Assembly: GCA_003598025.1 (NCBI GenBank) | Contig: QZKH01000004.1 | Span: 1-48,932 of the forward strand | Direction of reading: 5' to 3' | Length of the DNA stretch: 48,932 nt | From: Candidatus Omnitrophota bacterium | Lineage (GTDB): Bacteria > Omnitrophota > Gorgyraeia > Gygaellales > Profunditerraquicolaceae | Shown here: piece by piece, positions 1-40,100 of the stretch | Layout: each line of letters begins with the position of its first letter | Position numbering within the stretch: the stretch's first letter is position 1 | Notes under the pieces: model-generated | Databases searched by the model: none | The model's input: only the letters and a program-made list of their open reading frames with translations | What the model was told of the DNA's origin: nothing | Translations under genes and position numbers: made by a program

Positions 1-1190
1 ATAGACTCAAACATATATTTTGATAAGAGCGGCCAGCTTGATTACTTTACAGGTACAAATTATGTTAAGAATATTGATGGTAAGGGACAGTTTATAACTT
101 TAAATTCAACAGATAATGATGGTCAGAGGCGCATAGGTGGTTACAGATTCTCAGGAGTTCTTAAATTACAGCATAGCTTAGACAGCGAAAACAATGTTCG
201 TCTTGATGTCGCAAATATATATGATCCGGTTGCACAGCAGTATAAAGACCTTACAATTTATAATACTTATTATAGTACACTTGACGGTGTAAATATTCAG
301 AAAGCCGATATCAACACATTTTCAATAACTCCAAGGATTGATAATAAGGGTAAGACAATAACAGGTCAGGGAGATATACAGCTTACCATGGGTGGTATAC
401 CTGAAATGAATGCCCTGAATTCCGATAGGGGGGTATTTCAAACAGCGCTTAATTCTCCTTTTAGCGGCAGCCTCAAACAATTGATTAGAGAGCAAAGTAC
501 ATTGGTGACGGACAAAGGGTTTACTCTTGTTACTCCCGATGGGCTTGTTATCAATATTGATAAGAATGATCCGAGAGTAAAAGATTTAATCAAGAGGCTT
601 GATAAAAAAGCTATCTTGATAACATTAGATGATGGCACTCAAGTAGTTGCAAGCGAAGACTGGCTAAGCAGACCACGTTGGTGGAAACCTCATACTTGGG
701 GTGATTATAAAGGAGAAGCTGCTGATGGTGAAAGGGTATCATTGGATAATAGCCGTCTCATGGAGGCATATTTAGAATTAAGAAATGGCGGGCAAGGAGA
801 AATAGGTGAAGATTTAGATAAGCTTTTGCAGGGGGTGCCTGTAAAGGGGTTTATTGATGGGGTAGAGGTTATAGTAGATAGCGCAAGTTTAACCAGGACT
901 GCCGGCGCTGGCTTCTGGAATTTATCTCTTGACGACAAGGTATTTATTGATACCAGGGGAAATCAGTATTATATAGACGAAGATAGAGTAATAAAGGCCC
1001 CATGGCTTGGAAAAGATGAGCTCGCATCGTATGGATATAGAGGAGATGATATTTTAAATGAAAGTAGCAATGATTGGCAACTAATAGCAAGAGATGATTA
1101 TGGCGTGCCAAAAACAGTTTTTATAGATGGTAATCAGGCACAAGACTTAGTAGGTACTTATATTGACGATTTCCCTGATTTGTACGGCGC
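1..1190 (+). other. Beta-rich segment of the giant protein, family unknown
   Basis: The first ~395 residues in the window are rich in Asp, Asn, Gly and alternating hydrophobic residues. They include strand-like stretches such as GVLKLQHSLDSENNVRLDV, and later short FIDG/VFID segments (near 850, 940 and 1120) that look like repeated extracellular beta-hairpins. No catalytic motif is recognised. The segment precedes the Gly-rich hydrophobic region, an arrangement reminiscent of polymorphic secreted proteins (RHS or haemagglutinin type), but I cannot assign it to either. Confidence 0.4.
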
Positions 1191-16100: not shown

Positions 16101-19100
16101 GACAGCTTGGGAAATCATGAAGGCCAAGGTCAGTTTAAGCAGGATTACCGATAATAGCCCAGCTACAAAATATTCGTTGAATGTTTATAGAAGCAATAGG
16201 CCTCAGGCATATGCAGTTAGAGACATAAAGAGGAATATCGTTGAGGTGAATTTGTCTACGGGGTTAATAGATATGTTAGATGAAGCTGAAATTGCTTTTG
16301 TTATTGGCCACGAGATGTACCATGCCTTGACATCAGCTAATGAGGGTTTATTGGTTAAAATATATAGTGTATTAAAAACTATATTGTCGTCTGGTTACCG
16401 CAGAGGGTTAATAGCAGATGAATTTAGCGCAGACATATTTAGTTTCAATTTAACAATCCATCCATATGGAGAGATAAAGGCAGCTTATGCGCCAGAAGCA
16501 GTCTTAGGGATATTCGAAAAGGCAAAGACGGTTAAGACACCTATTTTCCATGATATTCTTAATCCCCATCCGCCGGTTGAAAAAAGAGCCCAGATACTTA
16601 GGGCATTAGCAGGGCTGCCGGAAAGTGAAACAAGAGGAAGTGTTGTTACCGAGCATGAAACTAAACAGTCAACCATAACAAGAAGGGACATCCTTTTAGA
16701 CATATTAGGCGGGCTGCTGTTTGTTTCTGCTGTAGGACATATGGTCGGGCCATGTTTTAGAAGCAATAACGAGCCTGAACAGCCAACCCGTTTGACTGTT
16801 GCTGTTGAACCTGAGCCTTCGGCAGAGTTCGTATATGACCCCAGCAGGTATTATAGTCTGTGGTATGCATATGGCCAGGATGAAAGCGCGTTCCTCGATT
16901 TTGGCAAGAGAGACAGCTTGCCAGCTGCTATAAAGGATGAATTATTCGGTGGAAATAGGACAGGTAAATATCTTTTGAATGAATTGTATTATGTTGTGGT
17001 GTTTGCGTTATTTGCTGACGTTGATCCAATTTTTGCTCTTGCTCACTATATTAAAGAAGGCCGTGCAGATTTCGGCATGAACTTTGCTTTTGCTAATACT
17101 GGAGACGGATCATTACACCAAGATTTCTGGGAGAAGACAGTACAGCCTCGGTTCAGAGAGATTTATGGAGAAGAGATATCCTATGGATTCTCTAATTGGG
17201 AGCAAATGCTTTATGATCCTTGGATAGGGCCCTATGTCTACAGAAGCTTGTTAGAAGATAAATTAATTGGTTACGCAGAAGAATTGGCAGGCAAGGGGAA
17301 CAAATTCAAGATTATAACCAATTGCCAGATATTAGAGGAAGCAGCTAAGACCTTGCAGCTTTATCAGGGCTGGGGTAGCGTAAGAACGAAAGGAAGTAGT
17401 GTTAATTATACCAGCAGAAATTCATCATATAGATATGAATACGGATATTCTATTTTGGCAATTATGTTGTTATTGCAGATGCCAGAAAACAAAGCTGTTA
17501 TAGATGGTGTTATCGAGAAAGCCAAGCAGAATACAATGAGTTTTAGGTCAGAATTCAACTCCGGATTTTCCACTATATTCGGAATTGATGTTAACAAATT
17601 AGCCTCTAGCCCGATTAAAGAATCAGGAGAAGCTTCTTCGCCAATATCTCGTGAAGAAGCAATCGAGGTCAGATTGTCTGAATTAGTTGAATTAAAGATT
17701 ACGCCTCTATTCAGGGATTCCAAAAGATCCCGCATGTTAAACAAATTGGTGGCTATTGCTGCAACAGATATTTTAGACAGAGTTCTAGATGAATTTGAAG
17801 TTACTCTGGATGATATAGAGATAGCTTACAAATTGCAGGTTATGTTGAATAATATAGGAATAGGAGATTTTAAGGTCGTCAAGCCCACCATAAAACACAG
17901 GCCTTATTTTGTCGAATATAAATCAGGAGCATCGTCCCCTATTAAACTCGATGAATTAAGCGGAGAGCACCGTCAGGCAGTACTTGAGTTGTTTACCCAA
18001 AAGTTCATCGCCGCTGCCACAGAAGATCGTTCCAGCGTTCCTGCCAGAGAAGCTGCCAAGCAGCTCTTTGATACAATGTGGGAGCAGGAAGATTTTGTTT
18101 CTGAAAATAAAACAGCTATAAGTGATGAATTAATAGATAAAGTATTTACCTTAGATACTTACAACAGGGCGCAGCAGGCAAAAATAACCAGGGAATTTAT
18201 GGCAGCGCTTAAGACTGTTGTTTTTGCAGAAGGCACACCAATAAGAGAAGGCGCAGAAAATGTATTTGAGGAGATGTGGGGTAATTGGGAATTTAACGCT
18301 TCAGAGGAACTTAAAGCAGAATTAAAAGCAGATTTTGTAATTGATGTAGTCGGCCTTGACGCCCTAAGGGAAGAGGCGCGAAATCAGGACTATTATTTAT
18401 ACCAGATGATCGCAGCAGGCAAAGGCACATATATAGGTAAGATATTTAAGGCGATAGGCTGGAATGTCCCTGTTTGTTACAATGATGCACACGGGCTCAT
18501 TCTCATCGGAGATATCAGAGAATATGAGTCAGGTAAAGGCGGATTAAGCCATGGTTCATGCCCTGAGTGTTTATTTGATCATCTGCTAAGCATTAAAAAG
18601 GACTTAATAAGATCCGGACATTCAAAGGGTTTCAGCGAGGAAGATATTGCAGAATTAAATGAGCTCTTGCATAAGATTACCGAGCAGTTAAGGATTACAA
18701 AAGCCGCTATTCAAATACCAGTTGCAATAATTGCAGAAGGCGAAGCTTCAAGCCCCGTAGGGCCGGATAATGCTTATTTCTATCTTGCTTTATTAGAGAT
18801 GTTACCGGGTATGATTATGTCCGGAATTAGGGCAGAAGAGGAAGCGCAGGCTGCAGAGTATAATTATAATTTAAGCTTACTGCTTGATTTATTAATTGAA
18901 TTTTATTCTTTAAGAGATTTCGGAGTAGCAGTATTTGGTAATTTAACCATGACTTTAGGTACACAATCTACCGTGATTATTATTTCCTCCAGCCCGATCA
19001 GAATCCTTGTGGTTGACGATGAAGAACCTCTTAGGGAATTTATGGGCACGACTTTAAAAAGAGGTTTTAGAGCTATGGTTGAGGATGTTGTTGTTGCCAA

Positions 19101-22100
19101 AGAAGGCAGAGAGGCGCTTGATTTGTTTGTGGCTGCAAGAAATGAAAACAGACCGTTTAATTTGATTGTTACTGATGACAGCATGCGCGGGGAATATGAA
19201 GAAGAACTTATGAATGGACATGAATTAGCGCGCGCTGTTAAAGAGGTCAGCCCGACAACACCAATTATAATGGTTAGCGTGCAGACGGTTGATGAACGCG
19301 GGCCTGATTACTATCTTGCGGAAAAAATAATAGATAGATTCCTTAGAAAGTCACCCGATTTTTATGATGATTTGTTAGTTATAGCTAAAGAACTGATTGG
19401 CGTTTCTCTCCAAAGTGAAACTAGTCACGCCTCAGACGAAGAGGCATCCAGCAGCCCGATTTCGCATAATCAATACAGGGTTTTGGTTGTTGATGACCAT
19501 GCTGATACTTTGATGATGCTGCCTGTAATGTTAAAAGGCATGGAGGATGATTTAAAGGTTAGATTTGAAGTAATTACTGCAAGTAATGGTATATCGGCTT
19601 TAAGTAAATTCAAGGAAGCATTAACTCAAGGCGGGGTAGATTTTATAATTACCGATATCGGGTTACCGGATATAAGCGGTAACGAACTCACAGCCAGAAT
19701 CAAATCTGAGGCACCTGTTTATGTTATCAAGATTACTGCTTACGAGGAAGACGCAGCCTTAGGCCAAATGGATGATTTTATCCAGAAGCCATTCAGGTTC
19801 TCCAAGCTTGAAGAAGCCGTAAGGAAGGCTATAGAAGCAGTAAATGAGAGAGGCGCTTCAAGCCCGATTGATAAAAAGGCGGCCTATGATAGATATGATA
19901 AAATACGTGGCAAGATACGTACGTATGAGCGTAAAGTTACTGAAAAGAGCGGATTAATTGATGATGCTGCTGTAGGATTAAGTGAGGCGATAGCAGGATT
20001 AGAGACAGTTATAGAATCGGCTTTTGAGAGGATAAACAGTTCTCTGCGCGAGAATTCTTCTTTAAATATATTTGATATTATGGAAGACTTAGGTGTAGAG
20101 GGTGAGAATATCTATTCAGTTCAAACTTTAGATAAGATTTATCAGCATATCGAAGATGCTCCAGATGTTGCATTCACCAATACAAATTACCGATACACAA
20201 TTCTTAACGATCTAAAAGAAATAGCTCCTGTGTTCTGGAAGAGGGCGGAGAAAGTAGCCAAGCTTAATAAGAGGCAAGAAGCTTTTGAAAGCATAGCTGC
20301 AGAATACTTACCATCAAGAAGCGAATTATCATTCTATACTATAATCTCAAAGTTTAGGAGAATTATTAAAGATAGGAAATATGTCTTAACTGCCAGGGAG
20401 CGTTTGGATTTGTTAATTTCGTTATTAAGAGATGAAGTAAGAGATGAAGTAAGAGATGATATAGAAAAGATATTTGCAGATGCCCAGGAATATTTAAAAC
20501 AGAGTGCAGGAACTATGAAAACGATGAGAGGGTGGGCTAACTTAATCGAGGAAGTTAGGATGGTTACAGCTGATAAGATAAAACAAGCTATAAAGACCAA
20601 GCTTCCGAGTCTTTTCTCGCACCAGGATATCATTTATATTATCCTTCTTACCATTTTAGAAAGAAATAGTGAACTTACTGACAAAACTATATTGGGTGTT
20701 ATAAAAGCCAATAATATTGAAGATATAGTTACAGATGGTGTTTTAAGAGACTACGGTTTATTGAATACAAAACGTGATGTAAATAGTCGGCTTATTAGAG
20801 TGCTTGATGCAGTATTACCAAAGATAACTCGAAAAGAATATTTTTATCATAGAGTATTACCAGCTGTTGGCGTGGCGTTAGTAGCTGTCGTTGCTGGAGT
20901 AGTCGCTTTCTTATTATTGCCTATGAAGGGAGCATATGCGGCTACCACAAGCGGACAAGCTTATTTACCTCTATATAACTTTGGCTCTGATGTTTCTGAT
21001 TTTGGTTATGGTATGCCCGCTCCTGAAACTATCACCGACTTTACTCAATTTGAAGATTATTTAAACACTTGGGCACAGCAGCAGTTAGTTACGTTAGCTC
21101 CGGAGGTTGCAGAAGCTGAAGATGCAGCTCCAGCTGTTGATGCAACTATATCCGGCAATGCTACAGAGCCTGCGAACGTTAAATACACGGTAGTTTCAGG
21201 TGATAATCTCTCTAAGATTGCGAAGAGGCATTTGGGTAAAGCAAGCCTTTGGCCGCAGATATATGCAGCTAATAAAAAGGTAATCGGCAATAATCCTGAT
21301 TTAATTATGCCAGGGCAGGAGCTTACTATAGAAAATATAGGTCACAAAGTCACAAAGTCACAAAGTCACAGTGAAGAAGCTCCGGCTAATGCAGCTCCAG
21401 TAACGACAGATAGGACTGAGGCGGTAGCGTCGGTTAAAGTAGAACCGCAGCCTGCGCAGGATGCAGAGCCGGTAGTAGCAGCAACTCAGCCTCAAGTAAC
21501 TCCAGAGCCGGTTGCGGTTGATAGAGAAGAAGATCATAGTAAAGACGCAGTAGCCCAACAGGAAATAAGGGCTCCTCCTGCAGGTTTCACAGCTGAAAGC
21601 CTCTTAGCAAAGATCCTATTCTCTGATCCGCGCATTAAAGCTGATACAAAAGGTAACTATGCAGTTCCCGAAGGCCTTGCCGCCGCAGTAATCGCCGAAC
21701 ACCTCAAAGATGCATTAAATTTAGAATATTACGAAGTCCCGGCAAATATAGCCGGCAGGCTATATTTTGAGAAAGTCGCTAAAGGAATACAAGCTCAATA
21801 TCCAGGCTCAGCAGTTGTCGAAGTGCACCTTAATTCAGATGAATATATCGGTTTATTCTATCATAACGCAAATGGTGATACCCGCTTGTTAACAGTCCAG
21901 GAAGGAAGAGTTGTTGACCTTCCTTGGAGCGCTAACGTTTCCGATATCTTAAAGAAAGATAATGTAGCTTTACTGGAATTTGGTTCAGCGGCAAAATTAC
22001 CTAAACTTACCACAGAGCAATTTAATGATCAGGTTGAACAAGCAAGAAAGTTGGTTGACTATTACAAAACGGAAGTTTTAGGCTTGGATGAGAAAACGGA

Positions 22101-25100
22101 AGTGGTTTTGGCTGCCGGACACGGCGGAAGGAATTATGATACTTCATGTGCACAGAGGCATAAATTGTTCAAGATAGTCAGAAGTACAGGCGGACCGGTT
22201 GAAGTAACCGCAGAAAGAGCAGGAGAAATAAAGAATATCGCTGAAGGTAATGTGGCAGATACAGAAGAAGAGCCGGTTGTTGAACAGAAGCCTCTGGTCG
22301 TTGTTGAACCTTTACCTGTACCTGCTCCTGCAAAGCCCGTAGAGGCAGCAGCTACTGAGGCATCTACAACAGAGGCTACGGCTGAAAGACCAGCAGTAGG
22401 GATAGATAGAGAGGATTACGTTGAAGATAAGGCACGATTAAGTGTATTCGAGTTAAAACAAGCCAGAGAGGTCAAATCAGATAAGATTGAACCGGTCTTA
22501 ATAAATATCGATTCCATCCCCATAGCTATAAGAGACCTTATTAATTTAGGTGCCTCTAATCTTTATGAGGGAAACTATGAAGAAGCGGTATCTCAATTAA
22601 CCAAGGCAATTGTTATATCGCCGGAATATTCACAGGCTTATTATTTAAGAGGAATTGCTCTTTTTGCTACTAATCAGTTAGACGCCGCGATCGGGGATTT
22701 GGAAAATGCGCTTAGGTTTAATCCAACGCCATATATTAAGAAAACAGTAGAAATAAACTTGCCGATTTTGAAAGATTTAATGGCAATACCAGAAACTGAA
22801 TCTACAATTCAAGAAGGTATGGTGGTTTCCTTCGTGTTTAATTCAGGAGTGAACAAAGAGCTTGTCGAAGGAGATGTTTCTGGCGATTTAGAAAATAGGC
22901 TTACACATGGAAGTTTGGCAGCGCGTGTATTAAGAAATGTTTCTCCGGATGTGGAAATTGTTTCTATATGCGTTGAGGATAACGGTAGGAAATTTGATTA
23001 TAAGTTAACCGAAGGGTTGTTTAAGGTTTTGATTTATATGCGGCAACATCCGGAAGTAAGAGCTGGGGTGGTTAATTTCAGCGCTGGGAATAATGTTCCA
23101 GATCCTTTTCAACAGGCAATAATAAGAGAATTGCATAGTAGAGGAGTGGTGATTGTTGCTTCTGTAGGTAATGATAATAGTATGGAGATGACTTATCCTG
23201 CTGCTTTTGATGAGGTTGTTGCTGTTGCTGCGGTAGATAGGTTGAATAACAAAGCTGAATATTCAAACTATGGTAGATATGTAGATATTTGTGCTCTTGG
23301 AGATATCCAGGGAATTTATAACGGCTATTACCTTAAAGCGCAAGGAACTTCAGTAGCTGCGCCTCGTGTTGCTGCTCTAATTGTCCAGATGTTGCAAGCT
23401 AATCCAGAATTAACTCCCCAGCAAGCTTTTAGAATTATTAGAGATACAGCAGTACCTATAGACGACAAGCACTTCAGGGAAAATTTGTTAGGTTCAGGCG
23501 TAGTTGATCCTAATAGGGCTCTAGCTAAAGCAGGAGATTTTGATAATAACGTAAATAGAGAGAACACATTTCCCATAAATCAAGAGTCTATGTGTCCCAG
23601 ATTAGATGTAGAAAAATATTTTATAGGCTTAGTCAATAACCAGACAAACGACAGTTTTGCAGAACCAGCTAACTCAACAATAAGTACCCATGGAAGAAGC
23701 TTTAGCGAATTAGTTAATATCTTGCAAGATCCTTGGTCGCGGCAGTTCAAGGATAGCGCATGTATTTCGGCCATATCCGAACTTACTAAATATAACGATC
23801 ATAGAGTAGTAGAAGTGCTTAGTAGCATTTTGTTAGAAAAGGATTACGACTGGGATCTAGGTACTAGATATGCAATTATAGATGCATTAGGTAAGTCTAA
23901 CGATCCGCGCGCAATAAGTGTTTTACTCAAGAAAGTGAACAGTGAATTTGATGGCATATGTGCCGCGTCGATATGTGCCTTAGGTAATTTGATAAACGAT
24001 GAAAAATGCAATGCTGAATTTATGAGATTGGCAATAGACAATTTTGATTTATTTTCTAGAATTCTGGAGAAAAGAACATCTCCTTCTATAAGAACAGAGG
24101 TGACTGAAGAAAATTTGGTAAGAATATTAGATGCTTTAAGGTGGTCTCCAAAAGGTATTAATGAGGAAGTGTTGTATCTTATTGCGAAAAAAGATTGGGG
24201 AAGAATCGTTGAAGTAGGAAAACCAGCAGTTGAATACTTGATTAGAGAATTAGCCAATGAATATAGTCTAGGAATTTGGGAGGATGTTGCCGCTACGCTC
24301 AGTAAAATAGGTGATAATAGAGCAGTGGAGCCTATTAGTAAATTATTAATTAGTTCTAACTTAAAAGGTAAATTTAGTTTACAAATAGCCATAATTAAAG
24401 CTTTAGGTGACTTCAAGGATTCGCGTGCCATTGATTCTTTAATTGGAATCCTTCAAATCTATAAATATCAACCAGACGTAAATCCTTATATATATCCGGG
24501 GGTAGTACGTGCTGTGCACGTAGATTATAAAGTTCATATAGCAGCTATAGAAGCCCTGAGTAACTTTAATAATGAGCGAGTTATTAAAATCCTTACTACC
24601 ATTTTAAACAATACCCAGAAAAAAGTTGACTCTTTTGATGCCTATAGGCGTGAAGCAGCAGCTTTGGCTCTAGGAAATATTAGAAATGATTCTGCTATTA
24701 ATTCGCTCTTGAAAGCAGTAGAGAACAAGGATGAGGAATTCTTTGTACGAACAGCCGCTATTCAGGCTTTGGGTAAGATAGATAATGATAGTGTGCTTGA
24801 GGCGCTTAAATTGATTACTGAAGATAAAAATGAAGATTTCCATGTAAAAGAAGAAGCAAGAAGAGTAATTGAATTATTCAAAAAAAGAACTATTAGGTTG
24901 CAGCATGACATTAATGAGAATAGCTCGCATCTCGATACTTTTATAGTTACTAATAATTATGCAGAAGCTATCAGTTTGGCAGAAAAATATGCTGAAGACG
25001 GTCGAAGATTATTATTTGAAGGTAGGGAGAAAGAATCAAAAGCAAAATATGAATTAGCTGCTGAGTGGTTTATAGCTGCAGAATCGTTAATGGATAGAGA

Positions 25101-28100
25101 AGCTGGAGTAGTTAAAGAAAGAAAAGAAGAAACGAGTAGCTTGATGGTTAAGAAAGCAGAGTTAGAAAAGATTGTTTTCTTGCAAGTCAGAGATGAGATT
25201 AATCCGAGAATCCAGAAATCTCAAGACGGCGAGTACGCAGCGAAATTGAGATTGGCTCAACGTTGGTTAGAAGAACTGTATAATTCTAGTTTACTCCAGA
25301 TAGATTCTATACATAGAAGTGTTGAATCACAGAGTAATTATAATACTGTTGAAATGAAGATTACCCAATCAAATACTCACGAAGAAGCAACAAAGCCAAC
25401 CGGACTCTGGGTAAGCCACGTTGGCGGAGCAATAGAGAATAACCAGGCATTCACTTATGATCAGGCAGCAAGAATAATTCTTTCAGTGAATAATCCTCAG
25501 CCGGCATTCAGTGCAGAAGGATTAGATGAGAATTTAGGTCTTTATTACAGCTTAAACGTAGAATCAGCTAAGGCCGCGCTCGATTTTTATCTAAGAGAAT
25601 ATACGAGATTAACAGCGGATGGGAAAGAATTCCACGGTTTTGCATGTGCTTATGATGCCGGAAACGGCAAGGAAGCAGAGTTTGTTGTAAGGGCCGGCCC
25701 TAATGCCTGGCTTGCGATGGCAATACTTACTTATACGGCAAGGACTAATGACAATACATATTTACCTGTAGCTATTGCAATTGCCGATGCATTAATAAAA
25801 ATCCAGGATGAAGACGGCGGTATAGAGCTTGGCTACAATATAAGCGCAAATAAAGAAGCGACAGCTTATTCATTATTTACCGGCCATGCGACAGAAGAGA
25901 ATATTGATGCTTATGCGTTATTTAATATGCTTTCTCAGATGCCGGGGATTACGAACCCTGAAAAATATTCAGCAGCAAAAGAGAAAATTGCCAACTGGCT
26001 GGCAACATCTGCTTATGACAAGAAAGAGCACAGGTTCTACCGCGGATTAAAATTAGACGGAAATGGCGACCATTGCTTTGCTACGGACACAGCTTCCTGG
26101 GCGATAATCGCTCTGGGCAGGGATAAATTGGCAAGTATGGGCATTGACCCAGAGGCATTATTAAGAGCCGCGGAAAAAGAAACAAAAGTTAAGGACGAAT
26201 ACTTAATTCCAGGTGAAAAAGAAGGGACAAAGGTCGAAGGTTTTGATTTTGCCAATCCAAAAGATGCAGGCAGGAAACGCAATCCTACCGTAACCCCTGA
26301 ATGGACTGCCGGGATGGTTTCTGCATATCAGGCAATGGGCATGCAGGATAAGGCAGATTATTACCTTGGCCAGCTTGATAGTATCAGGCGTGAAGGCGTG
26401 CTTCCTTACGCAACAGATAATAATATACCTACCGGCCATGGATGGAACACACCGGATGCTAGAGCTTCGGTTGCAGGCACTATCTGGTTCTACATTGCAA
26501 AATCAGGGGATAATCCTTTTACTATCGCTAATGAAGGTAAGGCAACAGACATACCGGATGACATCGGCTTGACTTTTGTTTCCAGAGAACAGAGATATTT
26601 AAGCATCGGGCAACTTGAAGCAAGCATAGATAATGCCCGCCAGAACACAGTCAACCAATTAAAAAGGCTGCAGGAAGTAATCGCACAGCGCAATGAAGAC
26701 AGGGAAAAGGATATTATGCAGATATTGCTTACCTTAAATACCCAGACTTCTAATTCATTGTTAAGCTTTAAGGCAGGCAATAACCTGTTTATTGGTTTAG
26801 GCGTTGGCGGTAAAGGCTATGATTACGTAAATGCAATAAATATCCTGACCGGCTTATTTGAAGCCGGCAGCATTGATGTTTTTGGCGGCTTGTCCTTAGT
26901 CGATAGTTTATTAAATATAATCCAGCAGCCAAGGGTTGCTAAGGCAGAGCGTGACGGCGCAGTATTGTTTATTAAAGAGCCTCCTTCATTAGATCTTAAA
27001 ATAATCGATATCGGCCTTGGAAAATTGTCGCTCTTCGGAGGCCGCCTTACACTGTTGAATTTACAGCGTAACGAATTTGCCTACTTCCCGCTGATTGACT
27101 TAGAAAATGAGCAGGTGGTTGAACAGCATAGCAAAAAAGGCGTAAACTTAACCATACCCGGCGAAGACCTCGGTAATTTCTTTAAGAGCATATTTAAAGG
27201 CGAGAAACACAAAGAATATCCGGCAATAGTAATCTTCTCAGCAAGGCAGAAAGCCGCCCTTGAAGAAGCAATGTTAAATACCGATCCTTCTTATATATAT
27301 TGGATTGAAAGAAAAGGGAATAACCAGATTATTATAAGGAATAATATTGATACCGGCGAGCGCACAACGCTCTCGGTCGCCAATATGTACCATGATTTTA
27401 CAAAGGATTTCTTGGTTGACCAGGGCGCGTGGATGGAAGAGGGCGCTTACAGGATCCCGTCACTGGTAGATTACATGAGAAACGGCCAGTATATGAGCGC
27501 GTTACTCGGGTTTGGCGGAGAAGTTAATTTGAGAGACAGGGAAATAATAGTCTATCAGTCAGAGCAGGAGATACCTGTTGCGGCTGATGGTATTGCCCCT
27601 GTTGAAATATTCAACACCTATTTCTATAATCCCGATGGTTCTGTAAAAACAACGCCATTAAACGTGCCTATCAATCCATATACAGGCAACATAATTATTC
27701 CTTCACTGCATATAGCTAAGCTTGAATATTTGGCATTAACCAGGGGCCTTGTAGGTAAGCAGTTTGTCGTTAATCCGGATAACGCAAGGGGCACATTAAA
27801 CGTTGTTGATCCTGCTAACAGGCCGGAAGTTATAACTCTTCCGCAGGGCACAGAGATACAGGTTAACACCGGTAAGAAGATAAAGGCCCAGACTTTAGAA
27901 AATGACTGGCAGATAACCTATGATGCAAGATTTACTGAAGGCACAAAATACAGTATTGATGGAAGGCCTTTTGCCAAAGTTAAAGCTGAAGAGCTCGATG
28001 TGCCTTATGCCATAATCAGGACATTTAGAGCAGATGTTCCCAGGACTGTATTTATCCATGATTCTTCGGTGTTAAGAGGCATACCTGTAGATGTGCTGGC

Positions 28101-31100
28101 TGATGAAGTAACGATTAGTTTTGGTAATGGCTTAAAGATCACATTAAAACCCGGCACAGTGGTGACATATCACAGCCAGTTAACAGCCAAAGGCGCAAAC
28201 GGCAGCTTAATACCTGCTATAGTTGAATACGCGGTTGACCAGGAAGCAAAAGGCAAATACGCAGTATTGATAGATGAGAACGGAAACAGAAGGTATCTGG
28301 ACGCTCCTCCCGCCGGATTAATCGAAAGAAGAGATATAGAGGAAGCAAGAATTAATATTGAGAGAAGGCGCGGCACAGGCGAAATCAAGCTGGAAAGAAA
28401 TGGAGCGCCGCTGGATTTTGAATATACTCCGGCATCGCAGGAAGATTACGAGGCATATGTAAAAGGCGTATTGGAATATGTAAGAAAAGTAGCTTATTGG
28501 AGGGCTGGTAAGACATACAACGAATGGTTAAGAGGCGTTTATCAGGAACTGCCCCGCTCAATGGAATCTGCCCGTATTGATTTAGATAATAAAATGTATA
28601 TGGAATATATTATCAAGCAGTTTGAGGTAGAGCAGAGAGAAAGGATAATCTTCCTTACTAAGCAGTTATTGCAGGCACAGGTTAACCTCAATGATGCAAT
28701 GGGCTTCTACAATAACGAGCTTGGCAGGGCAAGAGAAGGAGTCGATTTCTTAACAGAACAAATCAGCAGGGTTAATGGCAACATTTCCAACTTCACTGAT
28801 TTGATCGCTCAGTATGTTTCAGAAGGAAATGACGGCTTGGCGGATTATTACCGTGAATTACTGGAATCAGCGTACAATGAACTTGAGTATTATAACGGCG
28901 AACTTGAGATCTCCCAGAATTGGTTAGGCAGGCTTACCGCCTTAGAAGACGAGTCTATTGACGCGGTATATAATGTGCTTACCGGAAGAAGAAATGTAGC
29001 TATGTATAGCGGTCAGTTAATACGCGCCTCTGCTTTAGCTAATGTCAATTGGTATGGTTCACCGGATAACGCCAGGCGCGCTTTAGAGGCCTATACCGCT
29101 GAGTCAAACCTGCAGATAGCGGAATCAATATTGAATGCCCAGAGAGGCGTAGCATATTATGAGCATCTCCTTGAGATAAGCGAAAACGATATGGAAGATT
29201 TAGCAGCAAGAATAGAAGAATCAGAAGCGGCAAGGAATGCTTTGATTGAAGAACTTAACGCATTAAACGGAAGCGCAGATACAGAATGGAGCAGGGAGTG
29301 GATAAGGGCCCAGCTTGAAGCAGCCAGAGGAGATTTGGATGATGTTACAAATGGAGAATGGGGAATTTCAGGTTTACAGCAAAGGCTTGAAGAAGCTAAT
29401 CAGGAATTAACCGCACTTCTAAACCCTGATACAACAAGCTGGGGTATTGCAGGCCTTATGGCAAGGTTAGACCAGGCAAGAGATGACCTTTCTTCAGTAG
29501 AAACCGGAGATTGGGGTATACCGGGCCTGGAGGCTAATTTATCAGAATCACAAAGCGCATTGAATAGCCTCTTAACAGATACAGAATGGGGCATACCCGG
29601 ATTAGAAGCGCAGCTTTTAGATGCCCAGCAGAACGGCTCAGAAGATGATGTTGAATACTGGCAGGGAAGGGTCAATGAGGCTTACGAATATAGAGACCAG
29701 CTTGTTAATGAAGATATACCTTACTGGGAAGGAAGATTGACCACAGCTACTGAATACAGGGATGGCTTAAGAACAGTAGATGTGCCTTACTGGGAAGGCC
29801 GCCTTCAGGATGCAATTAATTACAGAGATGAATTGGTAAACGAAGGTATACCTTACTGGGAAGGCCGTATTGATGAGGCAGAAGCTTACCGCGACTCATT
29901 AGTTGATGGAGACGGTGTTGAGTATTGGCAGGAGAGGTTTGACGCAGCAAACGCAAGGTTAGAAGACCTTACTTTTAACTTAATACCTGCTGCTTCCGAA
30001 TATAATGTCTGGTTAGACGACCAGATGGCCAATTGGTTAAGATACAATAGGCAGCTGCAGGAAGACTTAGCTAACGCGCAGGAATACTTAAGAGAGCAAA
30101 TAGCAAATGCAGTAGAGGCCAGAGAATTTGTACAACAGAGAAATGACAGAATAGCTGCAGCGATTGATATGCTTGAGAAATTTATACCTGCAAGGGAAGA
30201 GCTGCTTGATAACTTAGACAGGATTATGGAATCAGGCCTCGGCACAGAAGCCCAGCGCCAGGAATTAATCAGGACAGAGGATGAGCTAGTAAGACAAGGC
30301 GAAAGCTTAAGAAAACAGATACCACACGGCTTCTTCCTTAGCAAAAAAGATTTTAAAGAAATAAGAGAATCCAGAAGGCCGCAAGGTTCAATTGGCTCGT
30401 TCTTTACTCAAGGCCTCTTAGGTAATCAGGCAGTGGCAACAGATGTGTTTATGCTCGGAAATTCCGCAGTTGACCTGGCAGTAAATGCTATGCAGCTTGA
30501 TGAGGGCGCTCCTCAGACGAAGGCAGTTGCATTAGGTATACGCACGCCGATAGGCGAGACCGGAACAAACCTCTTTAAGATAGAAAGGGCCGAAAGAAGC
30601 GGGTATCGTGAAACAGAACCCGGTGAATATGAGCCTTATAAAGAAACCCACTGGGTAATATTTGACAATGCCAATTTCGTATTTGACACAGAGCACCATA
30701 TAATAAAATTAGCAATTGCCGGTGTAATCGATGTTCAGGAAGGCGATGACGGCCAGATTTATGCGGTAGGATTCCACTTTGATGATGAATTTAAGAAAGA
30801 AGTCTTTAATAATTTCAGGGCATTCATTGAGGCAAAGGGCGGAATCGCAGGGTACAGCGATACAGATACAGTCCAGATTGCGATGCATGAGCCTTTTACT
30901 GGCCAGCAATTTTATGTCCCGCAGGATATATTCGTGCGCGAAGGGTTTAGTTTCGGCCAGGTAGGATTCGGTTTAAGAGACAGGGAAAATGACAGGGAAT
31001 TTAAAGTATTTGTCCGCGCTGAGCATGACACAAGCAGATGGTCACCCGGAGATTTTGCTTATATAGGCGCGGCATTTAAAGGTAAGATTTACGGGCCTGT

Positions 31101-34100
31101 TTCAGCTTATGCTGAAGTTATGAGTGGAAGCGCAACCAAAGCCAAAGGCTGGGTTGAGGTTCAATTACCTAAGGATGCAGCTATTAGATTAGGAGGTATG
31201 TATAACGAAAGATACAATTTAAGCGCGCTTCAGGCAAGCCTGTTATTGCCTCTGCCCGGTAAATCAGATTCAAGGATGGAGATAGGGTATGAAAAAAGGA
31301 TGATTAATGGCCGTGATTTCGACAACTTCAGTATTAATTTCCCGATACTTTCATTCGGCGGCAAGACTTATGAAGTCCCAAGAGACGAAGCCGGCAGGAT
31401 CAAAGGCATACCTACACAAGACACAAATATCGGCAGGATACAGGAAGCTGTTTACGAACCTATGCGCGCGATTGAAGCGGCAGGTTTACCTGAGACACGC
31501 GCTCCTCCAAAGGCCAAGGCTGATTATGTCACCTTAGACGGCAGGAGCTATTTGGTAGTCTGGGGAGATGAAGCAATAAAAGACGCTAAATTATTGGAAG
31601 GTTTTGGAGTGAAGCATTATCTTGATGGAACACGGCCTGAAGCACTCACCGAAGCAGAATGGAAACACACCAAAGCAGTAGGATATATGAGCGAAGAAGA
31701 GCTTCGTTCAGTCGGAATTATACATGAAGGAAATGACTACTATATTATTATAAACGGCAATAAAGTTTCCTTGGGTAAATATGCAAGAGACATAATCGTA
31801 TTAAACCAGGCACGCAACGGTTTACCTGTAATTATAGATTTAGGCCGCAGAGCTTTAGAGGTTGCTCAGGCAGATATTGAAGGAGTCGGCCCAGTATATG
31901 ACAGGAATGCCGGAAGAGTAGATTTAAGCGCTGAGCAGGTTAAGCAAGCAATAGATACAGGCCACTTATTTACAGTCCCTGCAACCGATGAAAACGGGGC
32001 AGTAAAGAAGACACCTTACGGTATAGTTTACAGGTTCCAGATAAGAGGTTTTGAAGGTATCAGCAATGGTGATTGGGTTCCCGGTAGAGCAGGCTATGCT
32101 TTATTGAAAAGTATGTCCGAAGGTAAATTCGCCTTAACAGATCCTAAGACAGGTGCTTCTCGTTACTACAGCGAAGCAGAATTAGCTAGGAACTTCGATT
32201 CATTAGGCCTGACTGCAGTAATTGTTACAAGAGATGGAGTAGAAGAGATATTGCTGGCAGTCCCAGATGCTGATGGTAAATATCAGCCTGAGTTAGGCGA
32301 TGTCAAACATAAAGGCAAGCCTTATCGTCCTATTCTTATACCTGTCAGCATAATTGAAAGAGATATAGCGCTTGCAGAAGAAAGATTATTCTTTGATGAG
32401 AAGACAGGCTTCAATACTGATGGTGAAGGTGCTAAAGTATTTATGTTAGCAGACTCACCGGATGTAAAGAGAGGATACTTAAATACACCGTTAACCGAAG
32501 ATACATTAAAAGAACAGTGGGATGAGCTTATTTCTCAATATGTCGGTACACCAGATAATGATGTAGAAGGACAGTTTTCTGTTGATACTAAAACAGATGC
32601 TCCGGCAAATGAGGCGCCAGCAGTAACTCAGCCTGCACCTAAAAAAGAATCAGTTGAAGCTGTCCCAGAAGCTGCTCAGTCGGCTGAAGCTACCAATCCA
32701 TCAGAGAATAAACAGGCAAGCTTAGAAACATCCGATGATCATAGAGAAGAAGGACTGCTCGCTAGAATCGGTGATGTGATCTTAGACCTTATATTCGGCG
32801 GAGAGAAAGCCTACGCTGAAGCAATAGAGGACACAAGCATAACTGAATTACCTTTATCCATGAACCAGGCAAGTGGTGAAAGATGGGCATCTGAATGGAT
32901 TACCGGGCCATTTGACGTCCAGGGTAAACAGAAATTAACCTTTACCGTTAGCGGAGAAGGCAAATTTATGCTCCAGCTATTACCTAAATCAGCAAATGAA
33001 AACAGCCCGACAGGATTACAAGGGCTTTATACATTAACTAAAGAACCAAAAACAATAGTTGTTGAGGCAGTAGATTTAAGTAATATTAAGCGCATAGCTT
33101 TCCATACCGGAGAAGAGGCTTTTGGCAGGAAGATTAATCCTTCAGGAAGAGCCGTCTTAAATGTTGATAGTATTACTGCCGAGGGTAATGGAAGGGCTTC
33201 CGAAACACAAAAAGCAACTCCAGCTGTAAGGGATATGCCGAAAGTAACAGGCGCAGAAGGTAATGTTAAAGCCACAGATGAAACTATACCTGCTCAGCAG
33301 TCTGTTGCTCAAGCTGATATACGCGCTCCTCCGCAAGGAGAAATAGAACTCGTAAATGTCAGCAACCTTGGCTGGGCATTTGTTGAGAAAGATGAACAGG
33401 GTAAGCCAAGATTGTTATTCGCTCTTGGCTCAGCAGAACAGAATACAGGTAACAGCCATATTTCAAGCTATCATACAGATTTCATGCCCGTAGTTGAACC
33501 TATAGAGGCAGTTGCCGAAATGCTTGCCGGCCAAGGCAACAACGTTTATAAGGTCTACCTGCCTCCGAATAATCCTACAAATAGTGATTTCAAATCCTTA
33601 AAAGATTTAATTACAAGAGTCCATGCAAAGACTAACGGCAGGATGCATGCGGTAGTATTGCATTTTGCCGGGCTTTATGCTGGCAGTAATAATAATTTCT
33701 ACCTCGCAGATCCTACAGCAGAAAACCTGAAGCAAGTCAGAAAGAGTGTTGAGCGTCTGGCAACTGAAATGAAAGGATTAGGGGATGCAGTATTATTCGT
33801 ACAACTTGGCAATGAGAATGACTATTATGTCCCGGGTGCAGGCACAACTCAGTTTGGAAGCGGAGCATGGGATACAGTGAACATGAGCGCCGAAGAATAT
33901 TACAGGTTTATGAATAGCCTGGCAGCAGCTTATAAAGCAAAAGACTCAAACCATCTGGTGTTTTTAGGGCATGGCGGGATGAGTGAGAATATTGCTGAGA
34001 TGATGAGGCCGAATGTTTCTAATTTTGACGGTATTGCATTGAACTTATATCCTAACTGGAATGAAGGCAGGCCGGCAAAAAGAGTAATGGGCGCCGATGA

Positions 34101-37100
34101 ATTAGCGGCTGAATTCGGTTATCACATCAGATTAGCAGCCGGTTTAGGTAAGCCAGTAGCAATAGGTGAGTTCGGTGAATCGTCTTATGGTTCAATAGGC
34201 AAAGAAGGCCAGGCAGAATTTGCCAGGAACGCAACCGAAGCTTTATCAAGATTTATGGCCGGCAACAACGATCCTCAATATAAAGATTATCCTAAGGTTT
34301 TGGTAGGAATGATCTGGCATGAAAGAAGAGGCGAAAGTTGGAAGAATAGAGATATCAATCCTTCCGAAGAAGACCTGGAGTTATTTGATGATAGCGGCAG
34401 AGCTAAACCGGTATTTAACGCACTTTCAAAAGGCTATCAGGATGCAACTAAAGGGTTAACGGGTGTCTCAGCCCAGCAAGAAGTTTCAAAGCCAGTTGCC
34501 CAGACTCCAGAGGTTGAGCTAGCCCAAGCACAAGAGGCTGTCGCTCCTGTAGAATTAGAGCCAGTCCAGCCAGCTTCAGGCGTAACCTCAGATACAGCTG
34601 TAAGCCCAGAGCTGAAAGCCAGGGAAGAAGCATTAGTTAAAGCCGCAATAGGATCTGCAGAGAGCAGATATTTTGTACAGGTTTATACTCCTGAAGGCGC
34701 AACGGATAAAGAAGTAATTATGGGCTTTATGGTTGATAGAAACGGAGAGTTATTCATTGCTCCGCATTTTAATAGTAGTAAGCCGGTAGAAAGCGCATGG
34801 ACATGGTTAGGCGTAAATTTAGGCGATAATCCGGTTGAAGAGTTAAGGAATCGCATTGCCGGGTCCGAAGCAAAGGGTGAATTGGTTGAAGTCGGCAGAG
34901 AACAAGAAGAGGCGGTTGAGGCAGAGCCAGTAGTTGTTGCTACTAAGCCTGTTGAAACAAAACCGGCCGGAGTAAAAGCAGTGGGAGTTGCTGATACTAC
35001 AGCAGCAAAACCTGCGGAAGCACCGGCACCAACAGAAGAAACACGGGCCGAAGAAGAACCTGTCAAAGTTACTGAAGAAGAAACTCCAGCTTCCGAAACT
35101 CCTGTCGTTCCGGCAGCAAAGCCTGCACAGCCAGAAACCCCAGCAGTAACCCCGAGGTTTGAAGGCAAAGGTCCGTATGTATGGTATTTTGATGCCAATG
35201 AGAACGGAAGATATGATAAAGGTGAGAAGAAAGTCAAAGGACTCAACCCAGACGAAAGAATACCGGAAGTAGAAGATGCATTATTGGAGGGATGGAGGCC
35301 GTTAGTTGAATTAGGTATAAAGATTAATGGCAAGTTCTGCACTGTTAAGATGAACCAACTCGGAAAAGATTTCTTAGAGGCGAGATACCAGGAAAACTTA
35401 TTATTAGCATATTCTGATGGCACATCCAGATGGATTCCTAACAGCGACTTACTTGATAGGGCAAAACGCATTGCTTTAGCCCAGGAGATATATGATGGCG
35501 CCAGCTTAATGCGTTTAACCACAAGAGAAGACAAGCCCACCGAATACTATTATCCTTCAGCAAACTTAGATGAGTCTTATGTCATGGTTGTTGCACCGGC
35601 TGAAAGAGGAGTTCCTGTTTATAGAATGAATGCAGATGCAACCGGATTTACCGGTGAACCTGCTCATTATGCTCAGGAAATTGGTATAAGAGAGATCAGA
35701 TATAAAGCCGGGACCGAAGATAAAGTTAAGAGAGTCATAATCGTTCAGAACGTTGATGAAGAAGGTAATCTTATTGATTATCTTGGCTATGATGCCTGGG
35801 GTGTAGTTAGGGTAGATCCCTATATGAGTAATGGGGATGTCAGGAGAGTAAGTGTTCGTATCGATGGAGAGACTTCAGACTTGATTGGAGGAGAAGCCGC
35901 AAAGAGAGGGCTAACAGGAAAAGAGCCAGTAGCGCGCACTTATTCTGATTTTGATCGTAATGCAGATGATGAATATACATTTAACTTAAGTCAACAGACC
36001 GGTTGGGTAGTAGATTTAGGGGAAAATATTCTGAGAATTAATCAGGGTAACGATCAGCATATAGATATTTCATTCAACATAAAAAAAGAATTCAGCCAAG
36101 ATGGTAAATTCATAAGAGAATTCGGTATAGCTGGGGGAGAAGAGATAAAACTTAAGTTTAGCAAAGGATTATTTATAATACCAGGCAAGGTGCTTGGCAT
36201 AGATAGAGATGTCGCGTATATAACAAAGATTGTCGATGGTATTTTTGTTGCTGAGACGGCAATATCAGAGTCAGTAAATGTCAATTATGAGGATCTTCCG
36301 AATGGATGGGCTGATAAAATAGGTGTCATTTTGGGGAACCTTAATTCACATCCTGAACTAGGAATAGTTAATCCCAGTGATTTAAAATGGGCTAAAATCT
36401 TATTTATAAATCCTAAAACAGAAGTCCGTTTTAATCCCTCTTATCAAGCGTTTGAAGAAAGAGGTGTATTAAGCGATGATCCGGTAATAAAGATATCTGA
36501 TGAGGGCTTAGCGGATATTGAGTTTAATTATGTCCATAACGGTCAAGAGCATATAATAAGTTTGCGTTTTGATTTAACAGGTGATTCGAAAGAACCAGTG
36601 GCTTTAAGTTACCGTATAGATGAAAACCAAAAGCTAGTTGTTGATCTGTACAAGCATCTTTTATTCATTGATGTTCGTGATGAACATGAGGGTTACTGGA
36701 AATATAGACTTCACCTTACGAAGAACGGGCTGTTTGGCAAGACTTGGGGAGAGATGTTGGCAGAGTTGCCTGACATAGCAAAATATAAGATTGAAAGAAC
36801 AGAGCAGTTTAATTATGAAAATAATTTGTTCAATCCCGCATTGCTTAAGGCGCTGGATGTTAGCTACGAGACCAACACATCCTATCATATTTACAATAGT
36901 CACAATTACGCAGTAGAAATAGGTCATGGAACTTTAGATAGGATTGATTGGGATAATAATATAATAATATCAAGCAACTCGGTAATATTTTATGCAGATC
37001 AGGCTGGAGATAAGGAGGCTTTCAGGATTTGGTATAGGGCATATAGAGATTTTGATGGAAATGTAAGACTGCAGGAGTTTTATGGTAGAGATGATAAAGG

Positions 37101-40100
37101 CTTCGTTGATTTCAATAGACCTATATTGGCTATATATGTATTTGATTTTGATAATCAAGGCATAGGTAGAGAATCGGTTGTTATTGTTAGAGACCAGAAA
37201 GGTGGTTGGTATCCTTTAACAACAGCTTCATTTGATCAAGCCACTGAAGCTGTTGTTAAAAACGCTAAAGGGCATAGTTATACTGATCGTCTGTTTATTT
37301 TTGATGTTACTACTATAAACAGGCGCATGAATATTGACGTTGATATTAATAATCCTATAGAAGGTTATGTTGATGCGCAAAGGCTGACTGAGACTCTTAA
37401 AGCCCCTGAATATATCAGGGAGAAATACAGACTAGGTAAAAGTGGCGAAGGCAAGATTGCGTTGAGAGCGGATGGTTATGACATTGATCCTGATACCGGT
37501 GAACTAATTGGCGATCCGCTTTGGATTACCTTAGGTTCTTTCAACACAGATATATTCAACGCAACAGAGGCTGGACCATTACATTTTGGATATGGTAAAC
37601 AAGGGTATACATATAGATATAGTAGGGAAAATGGTTTTGATGCTGACAAGTATGTTACAAAGACTTGGGAAGATAGTAATTGGGTTGCTAGAGTTTTTAA
37701 TCTTAGAGCTGAAAATGAGAAATTTGTCTATGAAAATCAAGACAAGAGAGAGAATAAAAGGGATATTGTTGAAATAACTCTTTATCCGGACGGCAGGCTT
37801 TATAGCCAGCTTTCTATGGATAGAGATCCATCCTTAGGTTTAAGAAGGCCAGGTGTTTATTATGAAAAAGAGGTATTCTTCGATGAATTTGGTGTTGCTA
37901 AAGAAACCAAGGTCGCTGACAACGATTGGAATCATGTTACTGATATAGCCCATGTGAGATTCGGCCAGAGCGCAATGACCGGCAGGACAATTAATCATAC
38001 TACGATAGTATTGCCGGATCACCCAGGTTATATGCTTGTTGCTGATAATGATAATGGCGAAGGGACTATTGATTATTTAGGTAATTATGTTGACGGTAAT
38101 TATGGTCCGTATTTTGGGGAAGATCGCAAGTTGTTATTAGCCAGGGCGGGCCAGGATCCTGATGAGGTGTTGTTATCCGGGAAGATCGTCCTTGAAGATG
38201 GCCAGGATTATAAGTTTGAAAAAGGAGTTCAACTGTTCTTCCAGGGAGAAATCATAAAAGAACATAGTAATAGGTTCAGACCGGTAATGCACAGACAGTA
38301 TAATGAAGAGGGGTTAGTTGACAAAGCGAATGAATTCTCTGAAATACATATATCCGAACACTCTAAAAATAATTTAATCCATAATCTTTTCTTAGACAGA
38401 AACGAGCGTCAAACAGTAAAGCCTTTGTTGATTATTGTAGGCGTAGGTTTTGCTATCGTGACAGTAGTTCTTCCTATAGCGTTAATACTCTTTACCAAAT
38501 TCCTATACATAGTTAGTTTCTTCGGTAATCTTAAGAATTTGTTCTCTTCGCCTAAGAAGAGAAAAGGGCAATTAGCTGATTTAGCTCTCGAGCCCGCTGA
38601 TGATGCAGAAGCGAGAATAAGCGATGTCAATAAGATGCTTTATCAGAAGATAAGAGCAAGGCTTGCCGATATCGATAGACACTTGTATCTTATTGGCCAC
38701 TTATCCCACTATCTTAAGAAATTCTATTTAATAGCTGATAAGGCTACTTTAGAAGTTACAGTTAAAGGCGATGTTAATAGCGATAAGAAGGGCTTCTATC
38801 CACAAGGCCATCCTAAACACGATGAAGTTGTTGCTGACCTAGGTGCGCTTAATTTCGATGATATAGACGCCCGTTATCTGTTTATAGAGCAATGGTTTAT
38901 CAAACCAATTTCATACTTGTTATTTGCTTTAATTCTTACTCAGCATGATAAGTGGGAAAATTATAATAAGGGAAAAGTCGAGAAAGGTAAAGAAGGATAT
39001 TTACCTTTTAGGGATCAGGATTTAAGAAGGTTAGCTGAGTTCCTTGATGATCTGATATTGGATTTAGGGTTGCAGGATTACTTACTGCTGGGAAAGGAAG
39101 ACAATATCAAACAATACGTAGAAAAGATAATGAAGATTGCCGAGCAGGAAATATTAGGTTCTTTGGATGTAGAAGAGGCAATCACCGATTACCTTATGCA
39201 GATACACAACTTAAAAGCAGAGGTGATTTCCTCAAGCAGCCCTATATCAGAATTGGATTATAGAATCTCAAGGATGGAGAATATAGTAGCCGGTATAGAC
39301 CCCATGCTTCTTAGTGACCCCAATATATCTGTGGCAGTAGGCGAAATCAATAAGGCTAAGGCAGAGAAGACAACAAAAGTAGCAGAATTAGAGGCTTTAA
39401 TCAAAAAGTCTGGGGATAAGCTTGAAGAAATAGAGGAGAAGAAAAAGGAAATAGCAAAAATAGATAAAGAAATCGAAACGCTGGTAAAACAAGTTAAAAC
39501 AAGAGTCATAGGTTCGCTAAAGAATATTGGATCTGATAGCGATAGACTTGTAGTTAATCTCAGGCTGCGTCTAGCCAAAGAATATAAAGATAGAAACTTA
39601 TCTTATCCCAGGTATCCGCTTAAGATCCGTATGCCCGGTAAAGTTTTTAAGGCCATTGTCTCTACCTTCGCAGTTGCTTTTGCCCTGTTTATGGGTGTGC
39701 CACTTCTCGGTAAAGTTGGATTAATCTGGTCCAGCCAGCTTCCTACAACAGCCTTAGCAATGAAAATTATATGTACAGCTTGGCTTGCTCTATTCACCAG
39801 TCATTTTGTAGCGCTTGTTTTTGGAGTCTCGATCGCCGTATTAATAATTAAGGAGGCTCAGCACACAGGAAAATATGTGGATTTCCATCTTATAGATTGG
39901 ACAAAAGGCATTTGGAAAATAATGACATCCAAGAATACCCAGGAATACAAAGAACGTTATCAGAATGATCCGAATTTCAAGGATAAGATGGATACCAAGA
40001 AAGCATTTTTTCATAGGTATTTTTTCTGGGTTGCCGCTTCCAATATTGTTATGTGGTTATTTACTATGTATTTTGGCGCAGGTTTAATTCCAGCGGTTGT

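Follow-up and report, generated by a model that had tools for sequence, protein, structure and literature searches.

Giant open reading frames (ORFs) have been described in Omnitrophota (Velamenicoccia, Omnitrophia), where their functions are hard to assess, including a 39,678-amino-acid (aa) protein with 42 predicted helices in Ca. Velamenicoccus archaeovorus (accessible text of PMC10066038), and the available part of PMC12057145 calls it uncertain whether proteins of this size are intact, citing the West-Roberts 2023 preprint. We analyzed a stretch of 48,932 bases, hereafter the window, which is the complete contig C4 of a 1.69-Mb Candidatus Omnitrophota genome (G000) and is occupied by one open frame. 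As far as the accessible text of PMC10066038 goes, its giant ORFs are like the window in their very long single frames, transmembrane helices, large predicted exteriors and small genomes, and unlike it in that no junction motif, strings of cytoplasmic enzymes or cutting are mentioned. A motif of the kind reported here is likewise absent from the accessible text of PMC11573180, PMC12583861 and PMC13153191, and a literature search with bioRxiv outside its coverage returned no paper joining SSPV with Omnitroph, or polyprotein with bacteria and Omnitrophota. In the window, the short motif SSP[IV] recurs at the junctions of complete proteins and is missing from one very long block. Judging from sequence, we give a probability of about 0.5 to the reading that the window belongs to a polyprotein whose SSP-Phi junctions are recognised, and probably cut, in the cytoplasm, with the block as an uncut exported product.

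The open frame of the window contains no stop over 48.9 kb, exceeding the 20 kb taken for a giant single ORF, while each of the five other frames has 529-1,707 stops. We counted 26 SSP[IV] sites in its 16,310 aa, compared with a mean of 0.31 and a maximum of 2 in 300 composition-preserving shuffles of the protein; SSPL adds one site, at 8560, outside the gap described below. Contig C5 of the same genome holds the same kind of open frame, running from the contig start to base 76,000 (25,332 aa), with 39 SSP[IV] and 25 SSPL sites and a longest gap of ordinary size (P = 0.93). The other ORFs of G000 showed no excess of SSP[IVL] (5 seen vs 7.0 expected in 163,005 aa). In eight pooled SSP-bearing pieces, 299 of 324 SSP occurrences were followed by V, I, L, A, M or T, and the preceding residue in G000 was mostly S, A or V; the true motif is [S/A/V/T]-S-S-P-[V/I/L], and its occurrences fall in short hydrophilic dips.

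The position of the motif relative to domains was determined with 53 Pfam spans (7,755 aa) from the window, C5 and most of the giant frame of another genome, G029. No motif lay inside these spans (20.2 expected), whereas 18 extrapolated domain starts (6.1 with motif positions shifted) and 15 extrapolated ends (6.2) had a motif within 40 aa. The SSPI at 19450 directly precedes the position of residue 1 of free-standing response regulators, and an SSPI of C5 lies about 15-30 aa upstream of where solved 4-alpha-glucanotransferases begin. In G029, the extrapolated start and end of the PfkB kinase are each 5 aa away from a motif. Of five histidine-kinase ATPase domains, four stop 0-23 aa short of a motif, and an amylase-like C-terminal module that is common to C5 and G029 (28% identity) closes on FTSSSPL and FSSSSPL, respectively, at the same place. 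Across four frames, the DGG sites of G092 (see below) included, 27 hydrophobic helices began within 30 aa after a motif (13.5 by chance, binomial 3e-4) and 6 ended within 30 aa before one (13.6 by chance). Six twin-arginine or lipoprotein-type signals have their start 3-28 aa downstream of a motif (G029 3241, 4447 and ~6593, G005 ~768, G009 7344, C5 20250). In a strict signal scan of the SSP-bearing giants, four of six matches followed a motif and the other two lay in multi-helix parts far from any; seven more matches occurred in giants without SSP. TatC was above cut-off in only one of 15 genomes, G092; therefore Tat export was dropped as the reason for the twin-arginine signals, and the post-motif signals were treated as Sec or lipoprotein-type. 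The motif thus sits at junctions of complete proteins, near natural N- and C-termini and outside recognised domains. As in a polyprotein, complete proteins stand in one frame, with domain starts and ends near motifs. The modules of the motif-rich parts are mostly cytoplasmic-type enzymes.

A first-pass annotation had pointed out that the SSP[IV] sites at 19858 and 39235 are neighbours with a motif-free gap between them, which we confirmed: the gap measures 6,459 aa and is improbable for 26 uniformly placed sites (P = 4.5e-5), as it is when sites less than 60 aa apart are merged into 19 clusters (P = 0.0011). The two hydrophobic helices it had described, at nt 20,845 and 38,410, are present as well (Table 1). 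A home-made topology hidden Markov model (HMM), which predicted 20 helices and 5.8 kaa (thousand aa) outside in the window, placed aa 6974-12809 outside with a mean posterior of 0.95. The annotation's statement that the gap coincides exactly with the exported block is better put as a near match, as the gap is wider and takes in about 350 aa before and about 250 aa after on the cytoplasmic side.

Table 1. Features of the window (base positions counted from its first letter).
Feature	Position	Strand	Source
Single open reading frame, 16,310 aa, open at both contig ends (inner giant-gene part)	1..48930	+	frame without stop
18 SSP[IV] sites: 6247, 6337, 6949, 7036, 7822, 10282, 14395, 14431, 14485, 15376, 16060, 17605, 17635, 17932, 18748, 18988, 19450, 19858	6247..19869	+	
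Second short predicted-outside segment (aa 3919-4108), motif-free; sixth P/A/E/V/T/Q-rich linker (aa 3917-3965)	11755..12324	+	
M48 metallopeptidase domain with HEMYH; SSPV ends ~10 aa ahead of extrapolated start	16153..16605	+	Pfam
Response regulator	19480..19824	+	Pfam
Last SSPI ahead of gap	19858..19869	+	
Hydrophobic helix, predicted in-to-out, then signal-peptidase-like AYAA	20845..20943	+	
Motif-free block predicted outside cytoplasm (aa 6974-12809)	20920..38427	+	home-made topology HMM
LysM domain	21184..21330	+	Pfam
P/A/E/V/T/Q-rich linker in block	21352..21600	+	
P/A/E/V/T/Q-rich linker in block	22231..22434	+	
Subtilisin-like domain; His and Ser motifs present	22933..23466	+	Pfam
HEAT-repeat region (best stretch)	24628..24837	+	Pfam
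Alpha/alpha-toroid-like domain	25600..26556	+	
P/A/E/V/T/Q-rich linker in block	32557..32736	+	
Possible glycoside hydrolase (weak)	33322..34470	+	PDB sequence search, best E = 0.045
P/A/E/V/T/Q-rich linker in block	34453..34626	+	
P/A/E/V/T/Q-rich linker in block	34906..35184	+	
Long hydrophobic helix, predicted out-to-in, then SSPKKRK	38410..38532	+	
First SSPI past gap	39235..39246	+	
8 SSP[IV] sites: 39235, 43732, 43786, 44545, 47578, 47704, 47836, 48838	39235..48849	+	
HAD-family hydrolase domain (cytoplasmic-type module)	46879..47421	+	Pfam

The predicted exported segments of the window contain six of its six P/A/E/V/T/Q-rich linkers and none of its 27 SSP[IVL] sites (Fisher 9e-7, with a linker rule composed after the window had been read). 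In the other motif-bearing giants, four of five such linkers lie in segments read as exported: the rule returned none in C5 and G029, one each in the blocks of G092 and G004, two in G009, both in parts read as exported, and one in G005, which is cytoplasmic-looking; a looser rule added three in G029 and one in G005, in ambiguous places. The first-pass annotation had also proposed RAPP as a second linker code marking module starts in the gap. RAPP does occur there, at 21568, 31498 and 33322, but also outside it, at 6367..6378 (+), while R[AG]PP occurs outside the block at aa 3149 and aa 5027 and three more times in C5; present on both sides, RAPP was rejected as a compartment-bound code. In G010, G088 and C5, RAPP stands within recurring contexts (e.g. 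KLLGRAPP, GLAARAPP), which suggests a repeated domain and not a linker code.

The domain content that the annotation had assigned to the block was recovered in part: Pfam found the LysM and subtilisin-like domains but no carbohydrate-binding module, and the glycoside hydrolase remained weak. PDB sequence searches for the identities of the glycoside hydrolase and the alpha/alpha domain gave weak matches or none, and no PDB match was found for the EamA module. The usual Asp motif was not matched in the subtilisin-like domain of the window, and none of three simple catalytic patterns was matched in its homologues in G005 and G009; the domain is possibly inactive. A free-standing relative of the alpha/alpha domain in G000 (L017:6662-8608, 648 aa) has the order PilZ - helix - alpha/alpha domain, from which we argue that this domain is extracytoplasmic. 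Of 108 family genomes, 101 gave matches, most of them with a similar free-standing ORF of around 650 aa among those listed, and the domain was apparently captured by the giant genes.

A survey of SSP[IVL] covered 15 genomes (17 pieces). The motif was strongly enriched in five (G000, G029 with 97 vs 2.65, G004, G005, G009), weakly in G038 and G103, and not in G010, G088, G062, G033, G042, G006, G092 and G114, where G033 was counted on 46,449 readable of 70,450 aa (72 kb masked). The 70,450-aa frame of G033 (C2, L042-L052) has TPTP repeats and no SSP excess. The 48,300-aa frame of G092 (L064-L073) has instead [KRQ]DGG (n=55, within aa 6680-48264) and RGPP (n=12); DGG occurs 91 times in this frame vs 14 expected, and helices often begin directly after [KRQ]DGG. 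G114 has 10 [KRQ]DGG in 18,434 aa. A close relative for judging conservation at linker level was not found in a scan of named genomes, which gave one weak match, in an unrelated genus.

Homologues of the block (aa 6974-12809) were detected by BLAST in G029 (9055-12215), G004 (1748-6167), G005 (1828-3870), G009 (8817-9187) and G092 (9067-9698), and all five are free of their own species' motif. The gap recurs over these homologous stretches in four relatives and, with a different motif, in a fifth, G092. The longest gaps of G029 (L053-L061; 6,722 aa, 8090-14812) and G004 (6,766 aa) were each reached in 0 of 20,000 random placements, and that of G005 is 5,388 aa (P = 0.005). The longest gap of G009 (6,267 aa, P = 0.04) is N-terminal, after a signal peptide, and that of G092 (6,679 aa, P = 0.02) is N-terminal too; the homologue of the core lies in their second gaps (5,047 and 5,064 aa), and [KRQ]DGG is missing from the core homologue of G092. 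Pieces G005b and G038 had no significant gap. The blocks of G000, G029 and G004 open with a helix and LysM. Individual block domains were also located outside the block, one of them at G029 6730-7017, between motifs at 6562 and 7056.

Within G000, the C5 frame is probably the 3' part of the window's giant gene. A further frame, C9:137422-140859 (L031:16563-20000), leaves its contig end and has a signal-like helix and a C39-like domain at its start; it shares 53-62% identity with the giant-frame starts of G009, G010 and G088 and probably represents the 5' end of the giant gene in G000. The C9 frame, the window and C5 are likely to belong to a single gene, which would then encode at least 42,788 aa. 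One small user of the giant's motif was observed in the same genome, a 1,030-aa protein (C9:18424-21513, minus strand) with SSPV, SSPM and SSPI, an N-terminal signal-like helix and, by eye, a methyltransferase-like part.

On the reading that we prefer, the window would be the inner part of a polyprotein in which dozens of complete enzymes, two-component regulators, transporters and exported proteins are placed end to end. A cytoplasmic factor, most likely an endoprotease that cuts after the aliphatic residue, would recognise SSP-Phi; the small-small-Pro-Val/Ile/Leu order of the motif resembles the AAPV-type substrates of elastase-like proteases. Cutting would release the modules, those with a signal sequence beside the motif would be exported individually, and topology would then not be propagated along the whole chain. 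The 6.5-kaa gap would represent one very large exported product between two membrane helices, which the long P/A/E/V/T/Q-rich linkers at its internal junctions may keep in one piece. The general form of this proposal, that some bacteria derive many of their enzymes, regulators and secreted proteins from a cellular polyprotein of more than 40,000 residues, which is cut in the cytoplasm at a lineage-specific motif (SSP-Phi in some species, xDGG in another) while a giant exported product with other linkers and no sites is spared, is more tentative, and on the frames compared we place it slightly short of an even chance.

Several results weigh against this reading or against a strict compartment rule. 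By the whole-chain HMM, the motif had a mean probability of lying outside of 0.365 vs 0.547 in the window (shift P = 0.12), 0.354 vs 0.394 in C5 (P = 0.025), 0.575 vs 0.532 in G029 (P = 0.84) and 0.38 vs 0.457 in G092 (P = 0.06), so that the topology overlay proposed in the first-pass annotation supports the exported block while the association of motif and compartment, mostly not significant under this model, speaks against a strict rule. The HMM puts the PfkB, methyltransferase and histidine-kinase modules of G029 outside; such a placement is unlikely for ATP- and S-adenosylmethionine-dependent enzymes, and therefore this test was not relied on. In G005 and G009, the subtilisin-like module, which in the window is part of the block, has a lipoprotein-type signal ahead of it and SSP motifs on both sides. 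The signal-bearing 1,030-aa protein uses the motif, and motifs are also scarce in the cytoplasmic loops of the conserved core that follows the block. Junctions without the motif exist (G029 aa 16678-19101, with starch synthase, ROK and CofD all motif-free), and conserved linkers without cutting would equally explain the position at junctions. The giants of G088 and G010 possess the homologous core and no motif excess; G088 (L093-L099) has one SSP[IVL] site vs 97 in G029, which belongs to the same genus, and is explained by no reading considered here. The division by compartment that the annotation had put forward thus describes the junction styles of the window, with P/A/E/V/T/Q-rich linkers and not RAPP as the second style, but is broken as a strict rule in G005, G009 and the 1,030-aa protein; 'compartment' alone is too strong a rule for SSP[IV]. 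A division into cut and uncut parts fits both the gap and the SSP-flanked exported-type modules, and the cytoplasmic factor recognising SSP[IV], also suggested by the annotation, would be the most economical account.

A further point on the negative side is that no protease tracking motif use was found among the 15 genomes. Some giants contain M48, S8 or other HExxH domains, but the distribution of these does not track the motif. M48 was rejected as the cutter because it is present in 15 of 15 genomes tested, with no match to motif use, S8 because it is patchy, again with no match, and an HtrA-like trypsin because it is absent from the motif users G000, G029 and G009.

An alternative that requires no cutting holds that the linkers are compartment-specific, SSP-Phi in cytoplasmic and P/A/E/V/T/Q-rich in periplasmic parts, while the whole chain threads the membrane. 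The short hydrophilic dips and domain junctions in which the motifs lie agree with this, as does the division of styles by predicted compartment in the window. A plain linker, however, needs neither a fixed V/I/L after Pro nor a distinct motif in G092 such as the 55 [KRQ]DGG sites, intact lipoprotein-type signals directly after motifs make little sense in an uncut chain, and the whole-chain topology would have the ATPase and kinase modules of G029 outside; we regard this alternative as possible but unlikely. The age of the segments was also considered, the motif marking modules recently added by gene fusion and the block being an old core never assembled in this way. The motif-free stretch of G029 (8090-14812) is in keeping with that view, as it continues across the conserved core embedded in the membrane, in which the cytoplasmic loops are motif-free too. 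Against it, parts of the block for which BLAST gave no match in G029 (aa 7147-8490 and the greater part of 10577-12128) are joined by P/A/E/V/T/Q-rich linkers or RAPP and not by SSP. Two further motif-free regions are unmatched by the block: the last 1.3 kaa of C5, which follow a lipobox-like signal, and the initial 6.2 kaa of G009, which follow the signal peptide. We regard the age of the segments as an improbable explanation.

It is more doubtful still that the giant chain is organised, without cutting, by a cytoplasmic partner that binds or phosphorylates SSP[VIL]. A short, uniform, giant-specific sequence in a hydrophilic context would suit such docking or modification, and its Ser-Ser-Pro could be a kinase site; yet the placement follows module termini, no partner is known, and an unrelated motif takes over in G092. 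The least credible origin is a DNA-level repeat or the scar of in-frame insertions, for which the recurrence at junctions might be cited, together with the codon bias of the G092 motif (GAC in 49 of 55 vs 164 of 223 other Asp-Gly pairs). Each of the six Ser codons and each of the four Pro codons is in use at the SSP sites, and the codon bias there is largely that of other Ser-Pro pairs. The repeat is therefore maintained at the protein level, and a DNA-repeat origin was rejected on codon diversity and the Ser-Pro codon control.

What the largest known bacterial genes do is an open question, in part because it is in doubt whether the chain is produced and used whole. A junction motif that predicts the ends of mature pieces offers a direct test with existing proteome data; it tells annotators where giant frames split, and it points to a cytoplasmic protease or binding factor that has yet to be described. 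Should cutting be confirmed, the system would be a cellular polyprotein on an unprecedented scale.

Secreted multidomain enzymes carry Pro/Thr- or Pro-rich linkers, which the P/A/E/V/T/Q-rich linkers of the exported block resemble; the SSP-Phi junctions are unlike them, being short, sequence-specific and located in the other parts. Viral polyproteins, in turn, consist of complete proteins in one frame with a short uniform separator that differs between species, and the window shares both characteristics. It differs from them in belonging to a cellular genome, in having a putative cutting step with no protease assigned, in its tens of thousands of residues and in the host-type metabolic enzymes that its frame contains.

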